This document shows positions 35,296-44,005 of a stretch of 64,000 nt of DNA, in pieces (the stretch's first letter is position 1; each line of letters begins with the position of its first letter). The translations under genes and the position numbers were made by a program. The notes under the pieces are model-generated. The model did no database searches. It saw only the letters and a program-made list of their open reading frames with translations, and had not been told where the DNA came from. The DNA is from Olsenella sp. An270. GTDB lineage: Bacteria; Actinomycetota; Coriobacteriia; Coriobacteriales; Atopobiaceae. Where the stretch lies: positions 62,001-126,000 of the forward strand of contig NZ_NFJF01000003.1 in assembly GCF_002159735.1 (NCBI RefSeq), written 5' to 3'.

Positions 35296-36789
35296 ATGAT
35301 CACCGGGGCCACAAAAGCCAAGGTAGACGATATTTGGCAGAAGATGTGGGAGGGTGGCATCACCAATCCGCTTGAAGTCATCACGCAGCTCACTTATCTG
35401 ATGTTCATTCGCTCGCTCGACGCGCGGGAGTTTGACGCCGAGCGCATGGAGATACTCACGGGCGAACCCCAGAAGCACGTCTTCCCCCAGACTCCCGAGG
35501 GCAAGCGCATGCGCTGGAATGTCTTCAAGGACTTCGAGGCAGAGGCCATGCACAGCGTGATCGCCAATGAGGTCTTCCCGTTCATCAAGACGCTGAATGA
35601 CGGCACGCCGTTTGCCCAGTGCATGAAGGATGCAACATTCGGCATCCAAAACCCCAAGACGCTGCAGCGCGCGGTCTCCGGCATCGAAGAGCTCATGAGA
35701 GATTTCGACGATCATATTGGTGACCTCGGCGATCTATACGAGTACATGCTGAGCAAGCTCTCTACTGCCGGCGCTAACGGACAGTTCCGCACGCCTCAGC
35801 ACATTCGTGAGATGATGGTGGAGCTGGTGAAGCCGAAGCCCAGCGAGCTCATCTGTGACCCGGCATGCGGAACGGCGGGCTTCCTCATCTCGGCTGCCGA
35901 GTACATTCGGTCGCACTTTGGCGACGCTATGACCGAGGACGATTGGTCGGTGTTCAGCGGCGAGAAGGACGGGCGTAGGCAGTTCAGTGGCTTCGAGACC
36001 GACCAGACCATGCTGCGCATCAGTACCATGAACATGCTGCTTCACTCCGTCGAGCTGCCCGACATCCATTACATGGACTCAGTGAGCAAGAACAACACCA
36101 TTCACGGCAAGTTTGATCTCATCCTGGCCAATCCTCCGTTCACCGGCAACGTTGACGCGGAGGATATTGCCCCTGAGCTCAAGGCAATCTGCAACACCAA
36201 GCAAACCGAGCTGCTGTTTGTTGCCCTGTTCCTGCGAATGCTCAAGCGAGGCGGTCGTTGCGCGTGCATCGTTCCCAACGGAGTACTCTTTCGCAGCAAC
36301 TCAAAGGCATACGGACAGCTTCGCCGTGAACTGGTGGAGAACCAAAAGCTCAATGCCGTCATTCACATGCCGAGTGGCGTGTTCAAGCCATATTCTGGCG
36401 TGAGCACGGCGGTGCTGGTGTTCACCAAGACCGACGCCGGCGGCACGGACAACGTGTGGATGTACAACATGAAGAGCGACGGCTATACGCTTGACGACAA
36501 GCGCGATCGTGACGAGAAGCACGATGACGTACCTGACGTAATCGCCCGCTTTTCCAACCTTGAGGGCGAGAAGGACCGAGCACGCACCGAGAAGAGCTTC
36601 TTGGTGCCCAAGCAGGAGATCGTAGACAACGACTACGACTTTAGCTTCAACAAGTACACCGAGATCGTGTACGAGAAGAAGGAGTACCCTCCCACCAGCG
36701 AGATTCTGGCGGAGCTAGAGGACCTGAACCGACAGATGGCCGAGGGCTTGGAGGAGCTCAAGAGGATGCTCGGCGGTGATTCAGAATGA
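35296..36789 (+). CDS. hsdM: Type I restriction-modification DNA methyltransferase subunit (HsdM)
   Basis: HsdM methylates adenine within the target set by HsdS. The 497-residue protein has the N-terminal helical HsdM domain, the SAM motif 'CDPACGTAGFL' (about residue 188) and the catalytic 'LANPPF' (about residue 278). Length is typical. Its stop overlaps the hsdS start (ATGA). From here to 44.0 kb the DNA is visibly less GC-rich than its surroundings and nearly free of the GCGAGAAG motif, suggesting acquisition. Confidence 0.95.
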   Translation: MITGATKAKVDDIWQKMWEGGITNPLEVITQLTYLMFIRSLDAREFDAERMEILTGEPQKHVFPQTPEGKRMRWNVFKDFEAEAMHSVIANEVFPFIKTLNDGTPFAQCMKDATFGIQNPKTLQRAVSGIEELMRDFDDHIGDLGDLYEYMLSKLSTAGANGQFRTPQHIREMMVELVKPKPSELICDPACGTAGFLISAAEYIRSHFGDAMTEDDWSVFSGEKDGRRQFSGFETDQTMLRISTMNMLLHSVELPDIHYMDSVSKNNTIHGKFDLILANPPFTGNVDAEDIAPELKAICNTKQTELLFVALFLRMLKRGGRCACIVPNGVLFRSNSKAYGQLRRELVENQKLNAVIHMPSGVFKPYSGVSTAVLVFTKTDAGGTDNVWMYNMKSDGYTLDDKRDRDEKHDDVPDVIARFSNLEGEKDRARTEKSFLVPKQEIVDNDYDFSFNKYTEIVYEKKEYPPTSEILAELEDLNRQMAEGLEELKRMLGGDSE

Positions 36790-37901
36790 CCGCAAGCAGC
36801 AAACCCCCCTTTGCGGGGGAGCGGGTTCCTTTCTCGAAGGCTTTTGCCGAAGTGTCAAAAGGGGTCTCAAGGATAAAGCAGAGGGACTACCTCCCTGCTG
36901 GCGATTACCCGGTCGTTGACCAGGGGCAGGAGTTGTTTGCGGGGTATTCCAATAGAGATGACGGCCTCTTCTCCGATATCCCGGTGATTGTGTTCGGGGA
37001 TCACACAAGGCACGTTAAGTACGTCGATCGGCCGTTCTTTGTCGGTGCTGACGGGGTGAAGATACTCAAGCCGCGTCTGTCTAATAACGTTCGCTACTGG
37101 TATCACGCGCTGAGGAACACACATCTGGAAAACCTCGGGTACAGCAGGCACTTTAAGCTTCTCAAGCAAGCGACGTTTTGTGTTCCTGATGAGGAGGCTC
37201 AGCGAATGGTTTGCGACGAGCTTGATGGGATCTTTGAGCTCATCAAGCTCGCTCGCCGCCAGCTCTCCCTCCTGGACGAACTGGTCAAATCCCGCTTTGT
37301 CGAGATGTTTGAATCGACGGAATGGCCTACGTTTCCTGCGGGTTCTGTGCTTTTAAAAATGAGAAACGGAGTCTCACCTTCGAAAGAAGGGCTGTGTCAC
37401 GCAAGGGTTCTCACGCTTTCCGCCATTACCCAAGGATCCTTCGACGCGGAGTCTTGGAAAGAGGGCGCTTACCCCTCTGACCCTCCGTGTGAGAAGCGAG
37501 TCTCTGCCGGAGAGTTCTATATCTGCCGAGGAAATGGAAACAGAGACTTGGTAGGCGCGGGGGAGTATTCAGATACCGATTTGCCAGATCTCGTTTTCCC
37601 AGACACGATGATTGCTGCCCGTATCAATTTCGACTTGATTAGCGCTGCTTACCTTCGATATGCGTGGGGTCGTCCCGCAATACGCAGGCAGATAGAGTCT
37701 CGGGCAAGAACAACCAATGGCACGTTCAAGATTAATCAGCGCATGCTCTCTGAGGTGTTGCTACCGCTTCCGCCCCTCTCCCTCCAGAAGGAGTTCGCCG
37801 CCTTCGCCGCCGAGGTCGCCAAATCGCAAGTTGCAGTGCGGCAACAGATCGAGAAGCTCCGGACTCTTTATGACAGCCTTGCGCAAGACTACTTTGGCTA
37901 G
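36786..37901 (+). CDS. hsdS: Type I restriction specificity subunit (HsdS), expressed copy
   Basis: The 371-residue protein has two target-recognition domains. The central conserved helix is at about residues 150-180 ('LARRQLSLLDELVKSRFVEMF') and the C-terminal one at about 330-371 ('LSLQKEFAAFAAEVAKSQ'). Its fourth codon onward, 36798-36821, is a 24-bp block found exactly at 39374-39397 before the second hsdS. ATG 36786 overlaps the hsdM stop. It decides the DNA sequence recognised, and could change by recombination with the cassette downstream. Confidence 0.93.
   Translation: MTASSKPPFAGERVPFSKAFAEVSKGVSRIKQRDYLPAGDYPVVDQGQELFAGYSNRDDGLFSDIPVIVFGDHTRHVKYVDRPFFVGADGVKILKPRLSNNVRYWYHALRNTHLENLGYSRHFKLLKQATFCVPDEEAQRMVCDELDGIFELIKLARRQLSLLDELVKSRFVEMFESTEWPTFPAGSVLLKMRNGVSPSKEGLCHARVLTLSAITQGSFDAESWKEGAYPSDPPCEKRVSAGEFYICRGNGNRDLVGAGEYSDTDLPDLVFPDTMIAARINFDLISAAYLRYAWGRPAIRRQIESRARTTNGTFKINQRMLSEVLLPLPPLSLQKEFAAFAAEVAKSQVAVRQQIEKLRTLYDSLAQDYFG
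36798..36821 (+). repeat. 24-bp direct repeat at the start of hsdS (expressed copy)
   Basis: The block begins AGCAAACCCCCCTTTGCGGG and is identical over 24 bases to 39374-39397, in the same reading frame and orientation. It contains CCCCC(N5)GGGGG, a small inverted repeat of the kind found at recombinase sites. It is a candidate crossover site for the tyrosine recombinase encoded between the copies. Confidence 0.8.
37773..37829 (+). repeat. 57-bp block shared by the 3' ends of both hsdS copies (first copy)
   Basis: Fifty-seven bases are identical to 40409-40465; they encode 'PLSLQKEFAAFAAEVAKSQ'. Sequences diverge immediately on both sides. A further 29-bp identical stretch (CTGGTCAAATCCCGCTTTGT...) lies in the central helix region near 37280 and 39918. 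Confidence 0.85.
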
Positions 37902-37909
37902 GTGTCACC

Positions 37910-38343
37910 ATGGATGAGCCGCCGTGCAACGGTGCCGGCTGCATGGAGACGCTCGGGCGAGTCAAGCGAGAGATTTCCGGGTCGAGTCGCGCGCCGTGCT
38001 TGCGGTCAACAGTGAGGTCATCTGCTTGTACTGGAGGATCGGCAAGCTCATCGACGAGCGCTCCGAGTGGGGCAAGCGCTTCATCGACTCGCTGCCTGGC
38101 GACATCAGGCTTGCGTATCCGGGCATCAGGGGCTTCTCGGTTCGCAACCTCAAGTTCATGCTGCGGCTTGCGAGCGAGTCGACCTCGAATTTGTGCAGCA
38201 GGTTGTTGCACAAATTCGCCGAACGCCCGCTGCGCAGTACGTCGGCCCCCATTGGCGTGAGCGAGTACAGAACCGCGGACGAGCTCCCCGAGGAGATGCG
38301 CGGGATCCTTCCGACGCCGGAGGACATCGCAAGCCGCATCTGA
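37910..38343 (+). pseudogene. DUF1016/YhcG-type nuclease, deletion remnant between hsdS and the recombinase
   Basis: This is a close relative of the gene at 394-1401, from 'ATGGATGAGC' to the final Ile-Stop. It carries an early frameshift (near 37985) and a deletion of about 600 bp. 'LVASE.. LEFVQQ' is joined directly to 'LRSTSAPIGVSEYRTADELPEEMRGILP', removing most of the nuclease domain. The palindrome with TTGTGCA...TGCACAA sits exactly at the deletion join (38188-38216). Homology to the other copy also covers the last codons of the upstream gene and about 45 bp downstream. Confidence 0.85.
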
Positions 38344-38393
38344 TGGAGCGACCCTCGCGCTATTCTGGCCTCCCGACAGAATGGAGGCCAGAG

Positions 38394-39374
38394 ATGATGT
38401 CCACGAGTGATGCGATTCGTCAGGTTGAGAGAATGATGGTGACGGCGCTGGACGGCACTCAGATGCGTCGCCTGCATGATGCTCTTGTCGAGTGCTTTGT
38501 CGAGCAGACCGTCGAGCGTCACAAGAGAATCGGCAATGCCGAGCTCCTTGAGGCGTTTCTCGACGCCAAGCGCCTTGAGGGCTGTTCCGGGCGATCTCTC
38601 AAGTACTACCGCAGCACGCTCGTAAGGTTTCTGGGGTCACTCGACGGGTCTCTCGCGCTGGTCACGACCGAGCAGATTCGCTCGTATCTGGGTGGATATG
38701 GTCAGGAAAACAACGCCGGCAACGTGACGATCGATAATGTGAGGCGCATCATTTCGAGCTTCTTCTCGTGGCTCGAGACGGAGGACTACATCTACAAGAG
38801 CCCGGCTCGCCGCATCAAGAAGATTCGCACGGTCAAGACTGTGAAGGAGACTTACTCGGACGAGATGATCGAGCTCATGCGGGATGGCTGCACAACCAAG
38901 CGCGATCTTGCCATCGTTGACCTGCTGTCCTCGACGGGGATTCGCGTTGGGGAGTTGGTGAACCTAGAGCGCGAGGACATAGACTTTGAGGCGCGGGAGT
39001 GCGTTGTGCTGGGGAAAGGCGGGAAAGAGCGGCGGGTCTACTTCGATGCTCGTACAAAGCTCCATTTGCTTGAGTACCTGGAGGAGCGCTCGGATGACAA
39101 CCCGGCGCTGTTTGTCTCGCTGTGCAACCCTCGCAAGAGGCTACAGATTAGCGGGGTTGAGATACGGCTACGCGAGCTGGGACGACGTCTAGGAGTGTGC
39201 CGAGTTCACCCGCACAAGTTCAGAAGGACGCTCGCTACGCGTGCTATCGACAAGGGCATGCCCATAGAGCAGGTGCAGGTGCTGCTTGGGCATCAGAAAA
39301 TCGATACGACTCTCAAGTATGCGATGGTTGATCAGCGCAACGTTCGACACTCGCATCGGAAGTACATCGCGTAA
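38394..39374 (+). CDS. Tyrosine recombinase (XerC/D-like), probable hsdS switch recombinase
   Basis: The 326-residue protein has a SAM-like core-binding domain (about residues 45-140) and a catalytic domain. Its Arg is in 'STGIRVGEL' (about 183), 'HPHKFRRT' gives the H-x-x-R (about 272-275), His is in 'LLGHQKIDTT' and the nucleophile Tyr in 'TLKYAMVD' (about 308). ATG 38394 follows GGAGG by 6 bases. Recombinases of this type beside hsdS genes invert or exchange specificity cassettes. Its TAA ends on the first base of the 24-bp repeat preceding the second hsdS. Confidence 0.92.
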   Translation: MMSTSDAIRQVERMMVTALDGTQMRRLHDALVECFVEQTVERHKRIGNAELLEAFLDAKRLEGCSGRSLKYYRSTLVRFLGSLDGSLALVTTEQIRSYLGGYGQENNAGNVTIDNVRRIISSFFSWLETEDYIYKSPARRIKKIRTVKTVKETYSDEMIELMRDGCTTKRDLAIVDLLSSTGIRVGELVNLEREDIDFEARECVVLGKGGKERRVYFDARTKLHLLEYLEERSDDNPALFVSLCNPRKRLQISGVEIRLRELGRRLGVCRVHPHKFRRTLATRAIDKGMPIEQVQVLLGHQKIDTTLKYAMVDQRNVRHSHRKYIA

Positions 39375-39397
39375 GCAAACCCCCCTTTGCGGGGGAG
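39374..39397 (+). repeat. 24-bp direct repeat before the second hsdS
   Basis: Identical copy of 36798-36821, starting on the last A of the recombinase stop codon. The frame continues into the second hsdS in the same phase as in the first, so an exchange at this block would yield an intact in-frame gene. Confidence 0.8.
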
Positions 39398-40567
39398 GTG
39401 CGCCGCGTCCGGCTGGGAGAGCTGATCTCAAAAGCTAAGGTTGAGAGATGCGGAGACAGGGATTTCCCCGTACTCTCGATGACGATGCACGACGGAATTG
39501 TGAGGCAGACTGACCGATTCAAGAAAGCCATCGCATCCAAAGATGTCAGCCTGTACAAAGTCGTGCGCCCCAATCAGCTCGTGGTGGGTTTTCCGATAGA
39601 CGAGGGCGTGATTTATGTTCAGGGCTACGATTGCCCGGGCATTATGAGTCCTGCGTATAACGTATGGGATATAGATTCTGACAGAATCGTTCCTGCATAC
39701 CTCGAGTTAGCTTTGCATTCTCCGAGAAGCATGGCGTACTATGCCGAGAGAATGCGGGGAACCACCGCACGACGACGTAGCATTACTTCCGAGAATCTGA
39801 CTGCGATGCAGGTTCCCCTGCCGAGCTTGGACGAGCAGCTGAACGTCATCTCTACTCTGGGGAGCGTTGAGAAGCTTGCATCGGATTGCTCCCGCACACT
39901 CTCCCTCCTCGACGACCTGGTCAAATCCCGCTTTGTCGAGATGTTCGGGGATCCGTGTGATCCTTTGACGAGGTATCCGAAGGCAAAGATTGGCGAGCTT
40001 GCCAGAGTGAGCTCAGGAGCTACTCCGAGTCGCAAGCATCCGGAATATTACGAAGGAACAATTCCGTGGGTGAAGACTGGCGAAGTTGCTTCGGGGAATA
40101 TCATTGAGACGGAGGAGCATATTACAGAGGAGGCTCTTCAGGAGACTTCCTGTCGTATTTTGGGCGTTGGCACCGTCCTTGTCGCAATGTATGGACAGGG
40201 CGACACGCGAGGTAGGGCCGCCTTGCTCACAATTGAGGCGGCAACAAATCAAGCCTGTGCTGCTCTGGAATTTGGCAATCAAATTGATTCGCAATTTGCT
40301 TTGGCGTACTTGCAGCACAGCTATCAGGATTTGCGGGAGCTTAGTTATGGCGGCAATCAAAAGAATCTGAGCCTGCGCGTATTGAAGGAGTATCCCATGA
40401 TGGTTCCACCCCTCTCCCTCCAGAAGGAGTTCGCCGCCTTCGCCGCCGAGGTCGCCAAATCGCAATTTGTTGGCAGAGCAGTGAGAGACGTCCTTTATTG
40501 CTACGTTCGGGAGACGAGTTCGACAGCTGAGAGGGAAGATCTCCGTGCTTCTCTTCAAACAGACTAA
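39374..40567 (+). CDS. Second hsdS, probably a silent specificity cassette lacking a start codon
   Basis: The frame is open from the 24-bp repeat (codons SKPPFAGE, as in the expressed copy) through two different target-recognition domains to 40567. No ATG or ribosome-binding site precedes it; the nearest in-frame start is an internal GTG at 39398 with no site of its own. It shares the central helix and the 57-bp 3' block with the expressed gene, then ends in an unrelated tail after 'AKSQ'. It is best read as a store of alternative specificity domains that can be moved next to the promoter and ATG of the first copy. Confidence 0.75.
   Translation, partial: SKPPFAGEVRRVRLGELISKAKVERCGDRDFPVLSMTMHDGIVRQTDRFKKAIASKDVSLYKVVRPNQLVVGFPIDEGVIYVQGYDCPGIMSPAYNVWDIDSDRIVPAYLELALHSPRSMAYYAERMRGTTARRRSITSENLTAMQVPLPSLDEQLNVISTLGSVEKLASDCSRTLSLLDDLVKSRFVEMFGDPCDPLTRYPKAKIGELARVSSGATPSRKHPEYYEGTIPWVKTGEVASGNIIETEEHITEEALQETSCRILGVGTVLVAMYGQGDTRGRAALLTIEAATNQACAALEFGNQIDSQFALAYLQHSYQDLRELSYGGNQKNLSLRVLKEYPMMVPPLSLQKEFAAFAAEVAKSQFVGRAVRDVLYCYVRETSSTAEREDLRASLQTD
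40409..40465 (+). repeat. 57-bp block shared by the 3' ends of both hsdS copies (second copy)
   Basis: Identical to 37773-37829. Downstream of it the second hsdS has a tail unlike the first, which suggests that the first copy's native end lies in the upstream gene and that this block marks a recombination boundary. Confidence 0.85.
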
Positions 40568-40630: not shown

Positions 40631-43600
40631 ATGAACTTCGACTTTCTCAAGACGCGCGCGGAGTATGCCATGTTTGCTCCGGCATGCGCCGAGGCCGAGA
40701 GAACGCTCTCCACTAGCCCCGCGATGTGTGCCGTTGGTTGTCGCAAGGCGTTTGAGCTGGCAGTGAAATGGGTGTATGCGGCTGATTCCTCCCTGACCAT
40801 GCCCTATAAGGACAACCTGTCCTCGCTTATCCACGAGGCGTCGTTCCAACGTGTCGTTGATCGAGTTACGTGGAGGACGCTGCCGTTTATCGTCAAGCTG
40901 GGCAACAAGTCGGTTCACACAGACCGTAGGGTCTCCCCACAGGACGCTCTCCTTGCGCTCAAGGCTCTGTTTGGATTCGTTCAGTGGATTGACTACTGCT
41001 ACGGTGGAGACGCTTATGAGGAGCGCGTCTTCGACGAGCACAAGGTTCCGCTCGTCAAGCTAGCGCTGGATGTTCAGGCAATCAAACAGCGAGAGGCTCT
41101 TCTCGCTCAGAAAGAAGATGTCATCCGGCGCCAAGAAGAGGAGATCAAGCAGCTGCGTTCGCAGTTTGCTGCAGCTAAGGCTCAGGCCATTGTCGAAGAC
41201 GACTTCAATCCCGATACCATTTCGGAACGCGAGACACGCAGGCGCTACATCGACCTTGACATCGAGTATGCGGGCTGGGATCTTGAGCGCAACGTGGAGA
41301 CGGAGGTCGAGGTCCAGGGAATGCCCAACTCCCGGGGCGTTGGGTACATCGATTACGTCCTTAACGGAGCGGACGGAAAGCCGCTTGCCATCGTTGAGGC
41401 AAAGCGCACCATGCATGACACCAAGAAAGGCCTCCAGCAAGCTCGTCTTTACGCACAGTGTCTTGAGATGCGCTACGGTTACGCTCCTTTCATCTTTCTG
41501 AGCAATGGGTTCGAGACGTACTTTTGCGACGACATCTCCGGATCCGAAAGGCCTTGCTCCGGGGTCTTCTCGCCCGAGGACCTCCAGCGGCTCACGAACC
41601 GTCGTGGAATTGCTCTGCCGCTTTCGTCCATGCGGGTTAACCAGGACATTGCTGGCAGGTATTACCAGATTGAGGCAATTCGTGCGATATGCGCAAACAT
41701 GGAGGAGGGCCACCGCCGAAACCTGCTCGTCATGGCAACGGGGACAGGTAAGACCAGGACGGCTGCGGGACTGGTAGATGTGCTCACTCGCGCGAACTGG
41801 GCGTCAAACGTCCTCTTTTTGGCTGATCGAGTGGCCTTGGTCAGCCAGGCGAAAGCGGCTTTTCAGGAGTATCTGCCCAATCTGAGCCTTTGCAATCTGT
41901 GCAGCACCAAAGACCGAATGGAGAACAGCTCTGCCCGAATGGTCTTCTCTACATATCCGAGCATCCTCAATGCCATCGACACCGTGAAGATGGGCGACGG
42001 TCGTCGCATCTTCACCCCGGCCCACTTCGACCTCATCATCGTTGACGAGGCTCATAGGTCCATCTTCAAGAAATACCGCGCCATCTTCGACTACTTTGAC
42101 GCTCAGGTGCTGGGGCTCACCGCCACGCCCAAAGACGAGGTCGACCGCAACACGTACGACTTCTTTGAGGTGGAGCGCGGTGTGCCGACCTATGTGTACG
42201 AGTACGACACCGCAGTGAAACAGGATCACTATCTGGTCCCGTACTACAACATCGAAGTGGCGACCAAGTTCCTCGACGAGGGAATCTCCTATGACGATCT
42301 CACGGAAGAGGATCGGGAACGTCTCGACGACGACTGGGAGGAAGCCTACGGCGAGGACGTCGCAGCTCCGGAGTTTATGCCATCTTCTGCGCTCAACAGC
42401 TGGGTTTTTAACGAGAAGACCGTTGATACGGTGCTCCAGGACCTTATGGAGAACGGTGCAAAGGTGGCTGGCGGAGAGCGCTTGGGAAAGACGATCATCT
42501 TCGCCAAAAACAAGAAGCATGCTCAGTTTGTAGTGGACAGGTTCAACGCCCTCTATCCCAAGAGGGGAGGGTTTGCCCGACGTGTTGTTCATGGTGATGA
42601 CTACTCCGATACCATCATCGAGGACTTTAAGTTCAAAGAGATGCCGGTCATTGCCGTCTCCGTTGACAAGATGGATACGGGGATTGACGTTCCGCAGGTG
42701 CTCAATCTCGTGTTCTTTAAGCAGGTGCACTCAAAGACAAAGTTCTGGCAGATGATTGGCCGTGGCACACGGCTGTGCCCCGACCTTATGGTTACGGACT
42801 GCTTGGACGGGGAGTACTTGGGCAAGCGACGCTTCTTCATCTTTGACTACTGTGGAAACTTCGAGTTCTTCCGTCAGGGGAAGGACGTTGCGGAAGGCAA
42901 GAATCCCGAGTCGCTTTCGGAGCGGGTGTTCAAGAGAAAGGTCGCAATCGTTGAGGCTCTCCAGAACCCTGCGTTCTCGTCGGGCGACTACCAGACATGG
43001 CGAGGCGAGCTGATCGGAGAGATTGTCCGGGCCGTGGGCGAGCTCCGCGCGGAACCTCTCAAAGTGGCGGTGAAGCTCCATCTTCACGCGATTGAGAGGT
43101 TCTCGAGCGAATCTGCCTTCTTGAGTCTGAACAAAGGGGACGTGGGTGAGCTGGAGCGAGAGGTTGCCCCTCTGATTGTGCTTGACGAATCGGACCAGTA
43201 TGCCCTTCGCTTTGACGCGCTGATGTATGGGTACATGGTCGCGGTTCTTCTCGGCGAGTCTGTTGATGCGTATCGTCGCAGGGTGGTTGACCTTGCCTTC
43301 CGTCTGCAGCACAAGATGACCATTCCACAGGTTAAGGAGAGGAAGCGGACCATTGCCCTTGTGGTCGAAGAGGATTATCTCGAACACGCCGACGCTCTGA
43401 TGCTCGAGGGGGTTAGAACAGAACTGCGCTCACTCATCAAGTTCTTGATTGACGGAAGCGAGCTTCCCGCTCTTGTGACGAGCCTGACCGATCCTGTCAT
43501 CTCAAGGCGCGAGGGCGAAGAGATTAGTCCCGGGGAGGACTTCGCTGACTACCGGCTCAAGGTCAATCGATACGTTATCGACCATGGGGATATGACCGTC

Positions 43601-44005
43601 ATACATAAGCTGCGAAATAACATACCAATGACGGAGCTTGAGTATCGGGAGCTTGAGCGTGTGTTTATGGAAGAGCTCGGCTCCGAGGCTGACTATCGCA
43701 GGACGTACGGCGAGACGCCTCTTGGATTGCTCGTGAGAAGGATCGCAAAGCTTGATCACGACGCTGCCATGGAAGCGTTTGCGGAGTTTATCAATGACGA
43801 GTCCCTGAGCCAGCAGCAGATGGCCTTCGTGCATCGCGTGGTGGACTACGTTGAGCAGAACGGCTACATGGACCCGTCCGCCTTGATGAAGACGCCATTT
43901 GACAGGCCTGTTTCATTCTTCCGGCTGTTTGACGATGGCCGACAAAAACGGCTGGTTCAGATTATCAACCAAGTGAGGGAGAACGCCTTGACGCCGGTGG
44001 CGTAG
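40631..44005 (+). CDS. hsdR: Type I restriction endonuclease subunit (HsdR)
   Basis: The 1124-residue motor and nuclease subunit starts with a DUF4145 domain (residues 1-130) and a coiled coil ('REALLAQKEDVIRRQEEEIKQLRSQ', about 155-180). The nuclease domain follows, with 'GYIDYVL' and 'IVEAKR' (about 255). Next come SF2 helicase motifs: Walker A 'ATGTGKT' (about 368), 'DEAH' (about 470), 'LTATP' and 'IGRGTRLCPD'. The C-terminal part binds the methylase complex. ATG 40631 follows GGAGG. It completes the hsdMSR set and appears intact. Confidence 0.95.
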   Translation: MNFDFLKTRAEYAMFAPACAEAERTLSTSPAMCAVGCRKAFELAVKWVYAADSSLTMPYKDNLSSLIHEASFQRVVDRVTWRTLPFIVKLGNKSVHTDRRVSPQDALLALKALFGFVQWIDYCYGGDAYEERVFDEHKVPLVKLALDVQAIKQREALLAQKEDVIRRQEEEIKQLRSQFAAAKAQAIVEDDFNPDTISERETRRRYIDLDIEYAGWDLERNVETEVEVQGMPNSRGVGYIDYVLNGADGKPLAIVEAKRTMHDTKKGLQQARLYAQCLEMRYGYAPFIFLSNGFETYFCDDISGSERPCSGVFSPEDLQRLTNRRGIALPLSSMRVNQDIAGRYYQIEAIRAICANMEEGHRRNLLVMATGTGKTRTAAGLVDVLTRANWASNVLFLADRVALVSQAKAAFQEYLPNLSLCNLCSTKDRMENSSARMVFSTYPSILNAIDTVKMGDGRRIFTPAHFDLIIVDEAHRSIFKKYRAIFDYFDAQVLGLTATPKDEVDRNTYDFFEVERGVPTYVYEYDTAVKQDHYLVPYYNIEVATKFLDEGISYDDLTEEDRERLDDDWEEAYGEDVAAPEFMPSSALNSWVFNEKTVDTVLQDLMENGAKVAGGERLGKTIIFAKNKKHAQFVVDRFNALYPKRGGFARRVVHGDDYSDTIIEDFKFKEMPVIAVSVDKMDTGIDVPQVLNLVFFKQVHSKTKFWQMIGRGTRLCPDLMVTDCLDGEYLGKRRFFIFDYCGNFEFFRQGKDVAEGKNPESLSERVFKRKVAIVEALQNPAFSSGDYQTWRGELIGEIVRAVGELRAEPLKVAVKLHLHAIERFSSESAFLSLNKGDVGELEREVAPLIVLDESDQYALRFDALMYGYMVAVLLGESVDAYRRRVVDLAFRLQHKMTIPQVKERKRTIALVVEEDYLEHADALMLEGVRTELRSLIKFLIDGSELPALVTSLTDPVISRREGEEISPGEDFADYRLKVNRYVIDHGDMTVIHKLRNNIPMTELEYRELERVFMEELGSEADYRRTYGETPLGLLVRRIAKLDHDAAMEAFAEFINDESLSQQQMAFVHRVVDYVEQNGYMDPSALMKTPFDRPVSFFRLFDDGRQKRLVQIINQVRENALTPVA

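Follow-up and report, generated by a model that had tools for sequence, protein, structure and literature searches.

In a 64,000-nucleotide stretch of Olsenella sp. An270 (contig NZ_NFJF01000003.1; the whole stretch is referred to as the window), a type I restriction-modification locus carries two hsdS copies in direct orientation with a tyrosine recombinase gene between them. Judged by its anatomy, it appears to be a real recombinase-linked direct-orientation hsdS exchanger. Very probably, recognition modules would be exchanged by excision of a circle and its reinsertion at another of three dyad sites, designated s1, s2 and s3. What the sequence itself shows is the anatomy, the dyads, the agreement of spacers and, in relatives, traces of earlier exchange. 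A more detailed reading, which we consider likely with clearly more reserve, is that of a three-address exchanger: common arms (CAAA...TTTG) and private six-base centres would keep start, domains and tail in register, and two domains would be freely swapped with a donor that has neither head nor tail. As part of this reading, the sites would be written inside conserved HsdS motifs, so that the protein motif would constrain the recombination site and vice versa, and the direct layout may be the commonest form in the recombinase family.

Shared blocks and candidate recombination sites

Both hsdS copies share three exact direct repeats, as an earlier note on this DNA had claimed (Table 1): a 24-bp block, which comprises codons 5–12 of hsdS1, a central block of 29 bp and a block of 57 bp near the 3′ end. 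The latter two sit within longer matches (54 bp at 91% and 66 bp at 97%). The 24-mer occurs exactly twice in the 2.01-Mb genome when up to three mismatches are allowed (reversed-pattern control 0), and a 15-bp core with up to two mismatches has two matches in the window vs. 0.20 expected. A repeat search of both copies revealed no inverted repeat of at least 16 bp joining them.

Three features go beyond the earlier note, namely one 14-bp dyad, CAAA-N6-TTTG, per block, an abnormal tail of hsdS2 and a DUF1016_N fragment. The dyads lie just after the start codon (s1), centrally (s2) and near the end of hsdS (s3). Their central six bases (N6) differ among s1 (CAAACCCCCCTTTG), s2 (CAAATCCCGCTTTG) and s3 (CAAATCGCAAGTTG and CAAATCGCAATTTG in the first and second copy) and are the same in both copies of each site. 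Exact matches to CAAA-N6-TTTG number seven in the window, five of them inside the blocks.

According to the proposed mechanism, the recombinase would act at the dyads inside the three shared blocks. As the N6 centres differ among the sites, like would pair with like only, and the domains would stay in place. A circle would be excised when the two copies of a site recombine with each other; its reinsertion at a different site would keep both copies and exchange one or both recognition modules. Start codon and normal tail would remain with the expressed position, and the donor would require neither. Enumeration of cycles that excise at one site and reinsert at a different one gave four arrangements, any of which can be reached from any other in one cycle. 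Without s1 only two arrangements result, and every simple deletion product keeps the aberrant tail. Recombination at the blocks by way of excision, giving several specificities, is supported by spacer matching, by identity up to the N6 edges and by module ends at dyads; by the enumeration the expressed specificities would number four. Circle formation in Olsenella sp. An270 and methylation of different sites by four HsdS proteins are predicted accordingly from this scheme.

Comparison of direct loci

After removal of duplicates from the same record, the sites were compared in 44 loci in which a full-length direct hsdS pair flanks the recombinase gene. These loci were drawn from Coriobacteriales genomes, Bacillota records, one Bacteroidota metagenome-assembled genome and some IMG/VR contigs; L090, in which the donor lies before hsdM, is excluded. 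The pattern.AAA-N6-.TT. was present in 85 of the 136 exact repeats of at least 13 bp shared by the copies, compared to 695 of 6800 length-matched random windows. Shared repeats were of the s1 type in 34 loci, at s2 in 44 and at s3 in 39, with all three in 32 loci.

Spacers vary from locus to locus yet agree within a locus. Same-site spacers were identical in 87 of 88 comparisons (s1 10/10, s2 36/37, s3 41/41), cross-site spacers in 0 of 131. For this test and for the codon test, sites were placed by protein motif and not by codon, yielding 28 s1, 77 s2 and 83 s3 cells of 88 each; s1 cells are few in the spacer test, and cells without the respective codon were left uncounted (Lys found in 188, Phe in 138 of 188). 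At the sites AAA encodes Lys in 182 of 188 cases and TTT encodes Phe in 137 of 138; over the rest of the same genes the respective counts are 1469 of 2451 and 966 of 1376. In loci with more than 50% GC the figures for Lys AAA are 63/64 at sites and 215/534 elsewhere. Therefore conservation seems to act on the DNA and not on the protein alone. A first version of the codon test (Lys AAA 67/67, Phe TTT 60/60) was dropped, since its sites had been picked by the dyad and were biased; the protein-motif test replaces it. A control based on central KSRF motifs of hsdS genes without recombinase (14 of 15 with AAA...TTT) was rejected as well, as nearly all of these genes were recombinase-linked or close to contig ends. 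L206 (AGG/TTC) was the sole clean unlinked control, and codon usage of the own gene served instead.

In 23 loci the average identity of the two copies rises from about 30% immediately left of s1 to 100% across its N6. At s3 (39 loci) it is 100% across the N6 and falls to about 43% over the next ten bases beyond the dyad. Since identity ends at the N6 edges, the exchange point maps to the dyad centre, with a selection caveat for s1: ten loci of this profile came from the dyad table (at most one mismatch per copy) and 13 from dyad-holding repeats, both of which favour high identity. The profiles of s2 and s3 were built on protein-motif cells.

Traces of earlier exchange in relatives

L090 and L092 (Gordonibacter sp. 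An230) have one N module in common, with 99.4% identity over 514 bp from s1 to s2, the recombinase region being 90.6% identical. By position this module is expressed in L090 and silent in L092. In L094 and likewise in L090 the two copies have the same C module, with identity reaching from 6 or 15 bases left of s2 to 0 or 6 bases right of s3, and similar module duplications occur in L158, L169, L042 and L059. Among shared or duplicated segments of at least 250 bp at 93% identity or more, 35 of 38 ends were no more than 35 bp away from a dyad centre, against an expectation of 4.0; this test covers 19 chosen segments with both members of most pairs counted, so that the ends are non-independent. 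Long flank matches were omitted from it, as were the pairs L121/L122, L160/L181 and L040/L164/L174, and in L027 a run of N separates the two copies. When the modules of 12 Coriobacteriales loci were compared, every match exceeding 40% identity and 80 residues in length was N/N or C/C.

A tandem duplication of 1673 bp in L041 (L041:3418-6781) comprises part of hsdS and the recombinase gene and begins within the s2 dyad. It is possibly the product expected from a circle inserted beside a resident copy, or an assembly error, the record being a metagenome. Rearrangement at strain level was seen in L136/L137, which have inverted copies. The Lactococcus plasmids pJM2A, pJM1A and pUCCL627F, whose loci also carry inverted copies, have near-identical flanks and three arrangements, with breaks at TAAATCATCATTTA/TAAATGATGATTTA. 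These dyads read TAAA-N6-TTTA and lie beside a recombinase 58% identical to that of the window; pUC073A equals pJM2A across the whole compared stretch. Comparison of Ligilactobacillus plasmids (L215-L218) revealed no informative rearrangement.

The second hsdS copy as a donor

As described before, hsdS2 lacks an ATG of its own. Its frame is open from position 39332, inside the recombinase gene, and the first ATG, GTG or TTG is a GTG at 39398 directly after the 24-bp block. The first base of this block is also the final one of the stop codon of the recombinase gene. Because both the start and the normal tail are missing, hsdS2 resembles a donor cassette that extends from s1 to s3. Among the 44 direct loci the normal HsdS tail is present in the upstream copy of 43 and in the downstream copy of three, by a tail pattern that was composed only after the tails had been inspected. 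In both copies of L095 (4011-4070 and 9602-9661) a short frame across s1 reaches a stop codon and an ATG comes immediately after it, and the silent copy thus has its own start.

The recombinase and its relatives

The intact recombinase gene between the hsdS copies, already noticed earlier, matched Pfam and scored 230.4 bits against the curated model NF040815 (XerA-like; cut-off 220). The candidate residues R184, K208, H274, R277, H300 and Y309, which we take to be catalytic from the recombinase family, are invariant in 16 aligned sequences. By model score and candidate residues the product is assigned as a XerA-type tyrosine recombinase, and the solved structures it matched by sequence are XerC-like, XerA and XerD. 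The enzyme shares the NF040815 family and conserved residues with XerA, XerC and XerD; unlike them it is part of a restriction locus, where three variants of the site lie within coding sequence. The dif site is likewise a dyad with a six-base centre.

Of the 140 genomes of the family, 15 contain relatives with E ≤ 1e-30, and of the 396 of the class, 36 do so with E ≤ 1e-80. Furthermore, 30 IMG/VR loci and at least 562 stretches of the genome_contigs collection were found; from the latter, the best 80 of the at least 562 confirmed relatives were analysed. Loci entered this sample by rank of similarity to the window enzyme, and it does not represent a census. The closest recombinases, 90% identical, belong to another family (Enorma massiliensis, G211, which is of the same order as the window genome, and G198), and their loci have the same layout as the window. 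A 49% identical recombinase is encoded on the archaeal plasmid pNP174 of Methanosphaera sp. ISO3-F5 (L224); the gene table of PLSDB, which is incomplete, lists no hsdS within 7 kb of it.

A total of 144 loci, duplicates included, were mapped as direct with two full hsdS (40), multi-direct (45), mixed (31), inverted (4) and single or at a contig edge (24). After removal of same-record duplicates (L105, L107, L108, L110, L150, L170, L182), 115 loci had two or more hsdS frames nearby, and 82 of these were all-direct. The earlier note had argued that direct copies need deletion, circle formation or gene conversion and had set them against mostly inverted known systems. Excision has comparative support; direct copies are, however, not rare in this recombinase family. 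On a tree of the recombinases (115 rows) direct and inverted layouts cluster, with nine changes needed vs. 28.8 in shuffles. Orientation therefore changed several times. Loci with fewer than two hsdS frames were left out of this tree, which has three long branches and was midpoint-rooted for drawing only. L052, which has an inverted part, was scored as inverted there, and L058 was removed as a further duplicate from the tree and from the module-sharing comparison.

Gene order varied among the relatives. Five loci (L021, L023, L094, L095, L097) have hsdR between hsdS1 and the recombinase gene, inside the segment excisable at s1; such an excision would take out hsdR, and methylation could then continue with no restriction activity. 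In L090 (L090:6382-11328) the order is recombinase, silent hsdS, hsdM, hsdS, hsdR, and the excisable segment would hold hsdM and not the recombinase gene. A 3.5-kb contig of a genome of the same genus (L020 in G093) has the same hsdM-hsdS start with s1 and one mismatch in the block; its hsdM is divided over two frames and the contig ends within hsdS.

Alternative explanations

Several observations weigh against exchange by excision and reinsertion at the dyads. No dyad is contained in 51 of the 136 shared repeats (some end inside it), and not all three blocks were found in 12 of the 44 direct pairs. The s3 arm of the first copy has one mismatch (GTTG). The normal tail is on the downstream copy only in L115 (L115:8690-13123; the sole such locus of the 44) and on both copies in L052 and L056, and both copies of L095 have an ATG behind s1. 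Duplicated modules do not arise from one conservative cycle and need an intermolecular step, and the strain-level rearrangements come from loci with inverted copies, not from the direct layout. No rearranged form of the exact window locus was detected: with up to two mismatches the 24-mer was found in two of 140 family genomes, its own and G093, and the exact 24-mer had no match in genome_contigs. The recombinase had no relative with E ≤ 1e-30 in the 30 other genomes of the genus. Moreover, binding and cutting by the recombinase at the N6 of the dyad is inferred.

Some of these points would suit RecA-type homologous recombination or gene conversion at the 24-, 29- and 57-bp blocks with the recombinase as a bystander, the strongest of the alternatives and still an unlikely one. 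Identity left of s3 (57 bp here, 74 bp in L024) reaches well beyond the needs of a 14-bp site, and homologous recombination may contribute for this reason; the duplicated modules of L094, L090 and others resemble conversion. Blocks of 24–29 bp are short for RecA. Identity ends at the N6 edges of s1 and s3, spacers are site-specific, one recombinase family adjoins the copies, and exchange ends at dyads in other lineages too, all of which argues for site-specific exchange. In pneumococcus, according to one report, excision independent of the recombinase occurs at the long repeats (PMC6265443), which favours the homologous route.

Less probable again is a one-way switch, in which excision at s1, s2 or s3 with loss of the circle would leave a single fixed new specificity. 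Deletion is the simplest outcome for direct repeats, and the same report has passages describing a shortened locus that became more abundant after removal of the toxin gene in pneumococcus (PMC6265443). Yet all deletion products would end in the aberrant tail T2, and the normal tail is missing from the second copy in 41 of 44 loci, as for a donor-only role. Furthermore, two-copy loci are common, and the module shared by L090 and L092 is expressed in one species and silent in the other.

We regard it as quite improbable that both hsdS copies are expressed, with the second starting at GTG 39398 or being coupled to the recombinase gene. An in-frame GTG does follow the block, and each copy of L095 has its own ATG; however, in the window a G-rich block abuts the GTG without spacing, no ATG, GTG or TTG lies upstream in frame, and the normal tail is missing. 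That the copies are static paralogues whose blocks merely encode conserved HsdS motifs (KPxF, KSRF, KSQ), as they indeed do, is hardly credible, given that synonymous positions are identical too, AAA and TTT at the sites far exceed the genes' own usage, spacers differ across loci and match within a locus, and modules common to several loci end at the sites.

Anatomy of the locus

The genome comprises 14 contigs. In the window the order is hsdM, hsdS1, DUF1016_N fragment, XerA-like recombinase gene, hsdS2 and hsdR, all on the + strand (Table 1). The ATG of hsdS1 overlaps the stop codon of hsdM. Against the Pfam family Methylase_S (cut-off 22 bits) hsdS1 scored 20.1 bits, under the cut-off, and hsdS2 74.6 bits, well over it; hsdS1 also matched the NCBIfam model for type I specificity subunits (9.4e-08), far under the model's cut-off. 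HsdS2 matched solved structures of type I S subunits by sequence, and hsdR matched the NCBIfam EcoAI model under its cut-off. With hsdM, hsdS and hsdR all recognised by Pfam and NCBIfam matches, the locus is assigned as a type I restriction-modification system.

Table 1 Features of the hsd locus in the window (positions count from the first nucleotide of the window)
Feature	Position	Strand	Remarks
hsdM (N6 DNA methylase)	35296..36789	+	Pfam N6_Mtase 4.9e-61, HsdM_N
hsdS1, copy with start, presumed expressed	36786..37901	+	Order: start, s1, N module, s2, C module, s3, normal tail
s1 copy 1 CAAACCCCCCTTTG	36800..36813	+	Within 24-bp block 36798-36821
s2 copy 1 CAAATCCCGCTTTG	37286..37299	+	Within 29-bp block 37281-37309
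s3 copy 1 CAAATCGCAAGTTG	37820..37833	+	One arm mismatch; 57-bp block 37773-37829 ends at last spacer base
Normal C-terminal tail of hsdS1, ending ...QQIEKLRTLYDSLAQDYFG	37834..37901	+	
DUF1016_N (YhcG-type) fragment	37924..38343	+	Between hsdS1 and recombinase gene; Pfam DUF1016_N 2.8e-13, part of domain
XerA-like tyrosine recombinase gene	38394..39374	+	NF040815; Phage_integrase 5e-31
hsdS2, putative donor cassette without ATG start or normal tail	39374..40567	+	Pfam Methylase_S 1.4e-20
s1 copy 2 CAAACCCCCCTTTG	39376..39389	+	Within 24-bp block 39374-39397
s2 copy 2 CAAATCCCGCTTTG	39922..39935	+	Within 29-bp block 39917-39945
s3 copy 2 CAAATCGCAATTTG	40456..40469	+	57-bp block 40409-40465 ends at last spacer base
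Aberrant tail of hsdS2	40470..40567	+	Unlike normal HsdS tail
hsdR (EcoAI/EcoEI-like restriction subunit)	40631..44005	+	Pfam ResIII, EcoEI_R_C, HSDR_N

The slot between hsdS1 and the recombinase gene holds the DUF1016_N frame, in which Pfam recognised no nuclease domain. Accessory genes occupy the slot in some other direct loci: DUF3990 and a partner (assigned by Pfam in L149 and L129, with look-alikes judged by eye in L152, L153, L162 and L171), HepT-like plus nucleotidyltransferase genes (L111), TIR (L139) and NERD (L167). L179 has a full-length DUF1016/YhcG protein in the slot and a Phd/YefM-like frame, below cut-off, between recombinase gene and donor. Three of ten accessory frames had sub-cut-off Pfam matches only (the DUF3990 partner of L149, the Phd-like frame of L179 and one frame of L140). 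With its toxin-antitoxin-like or defence genes in other loci, the slot recalls pneumococcal tvrAT. This toxin-antitoxin-like pair was initially proposed, in passages of one report, to stabilise the locus (PMC4263131), and was later found, in passages of another, to limit recombinase expression (PMC6265443).

Relation to known systems and implications

For the pneumococcal tvr locus (SpnIV), excision and reintegration via direct repeats, with circles and a tyrosine recombinase, has been shown in two reports (PMC6265443, PMC4263131), in the first of them by experiments. Circle formation, one of the routes named by the earlier note, is in this sense not new in principle. In both systems recognition-domain sequences lie on one strand between hsdM and hsdR, a tyrosine recombinase gene stands between hsdS copies, and several types of direct repeat have a common core, here the CAAA...TTTG arms with differing N6 (the pneumococcal core was compared by description). 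The window locus would work like tvr and differ in two features. First, a site, s1, precedes the first domain (codons 5-10 of hsdS1), which could therefore be mobile as well; the tvr domain adjoining hsdM showed no movement, for which the authors, in a passage of their report, suggest a missing 5′ repeat (PMC6265443). Second, a TvrAT (Phd-Doc) pair was not recognised, only the DUF1016_N fragment lying between hsdS1 and the recombinase gene. A donor without start and tail is a further difference from tvr.

The inverting pneumococcal ivr/cod locus (SpnIII, recombinase PsrA) and its relatives in REBASE, in the portions of the reports on them (PMC7394358, PMC7096588), likewise have a silent hsdS, a locus-encoded tyrosine recombinase and core-like sites in longer repeats. 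Inversions driven by PsrA at longer repeats depend, by a passage of one of these reports, on IR1-like sequences within them (PMC7096588). The copies of ivr/cod are inverted and exchange by inversion, whereas those of the window are direct and have no such inverted repeat. The REBASE survey looked for inverted repeats, and the term 'direct repeat' is absent from its main text (PMC7394358); direct loci would therefore escape it. In the text of a 2025 review on restriction-modification neither 'tvr' nor 'direct repeat' occurs (PMC12707154). No description of a three-site direct form was found among titles and beginnings of abstracts of the open-licence literature, preprints not included, and an earlier description elsewhere is possible.

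If the proposed exchange is true, methylation switching by excision and reintegration would extend from pneumococcus to many gut and rumen bacteria. The likely recombination site would then be named to the base, with six spacer bases predicted to decide which pieces can be exchanged, and such loci would be findable by rule.

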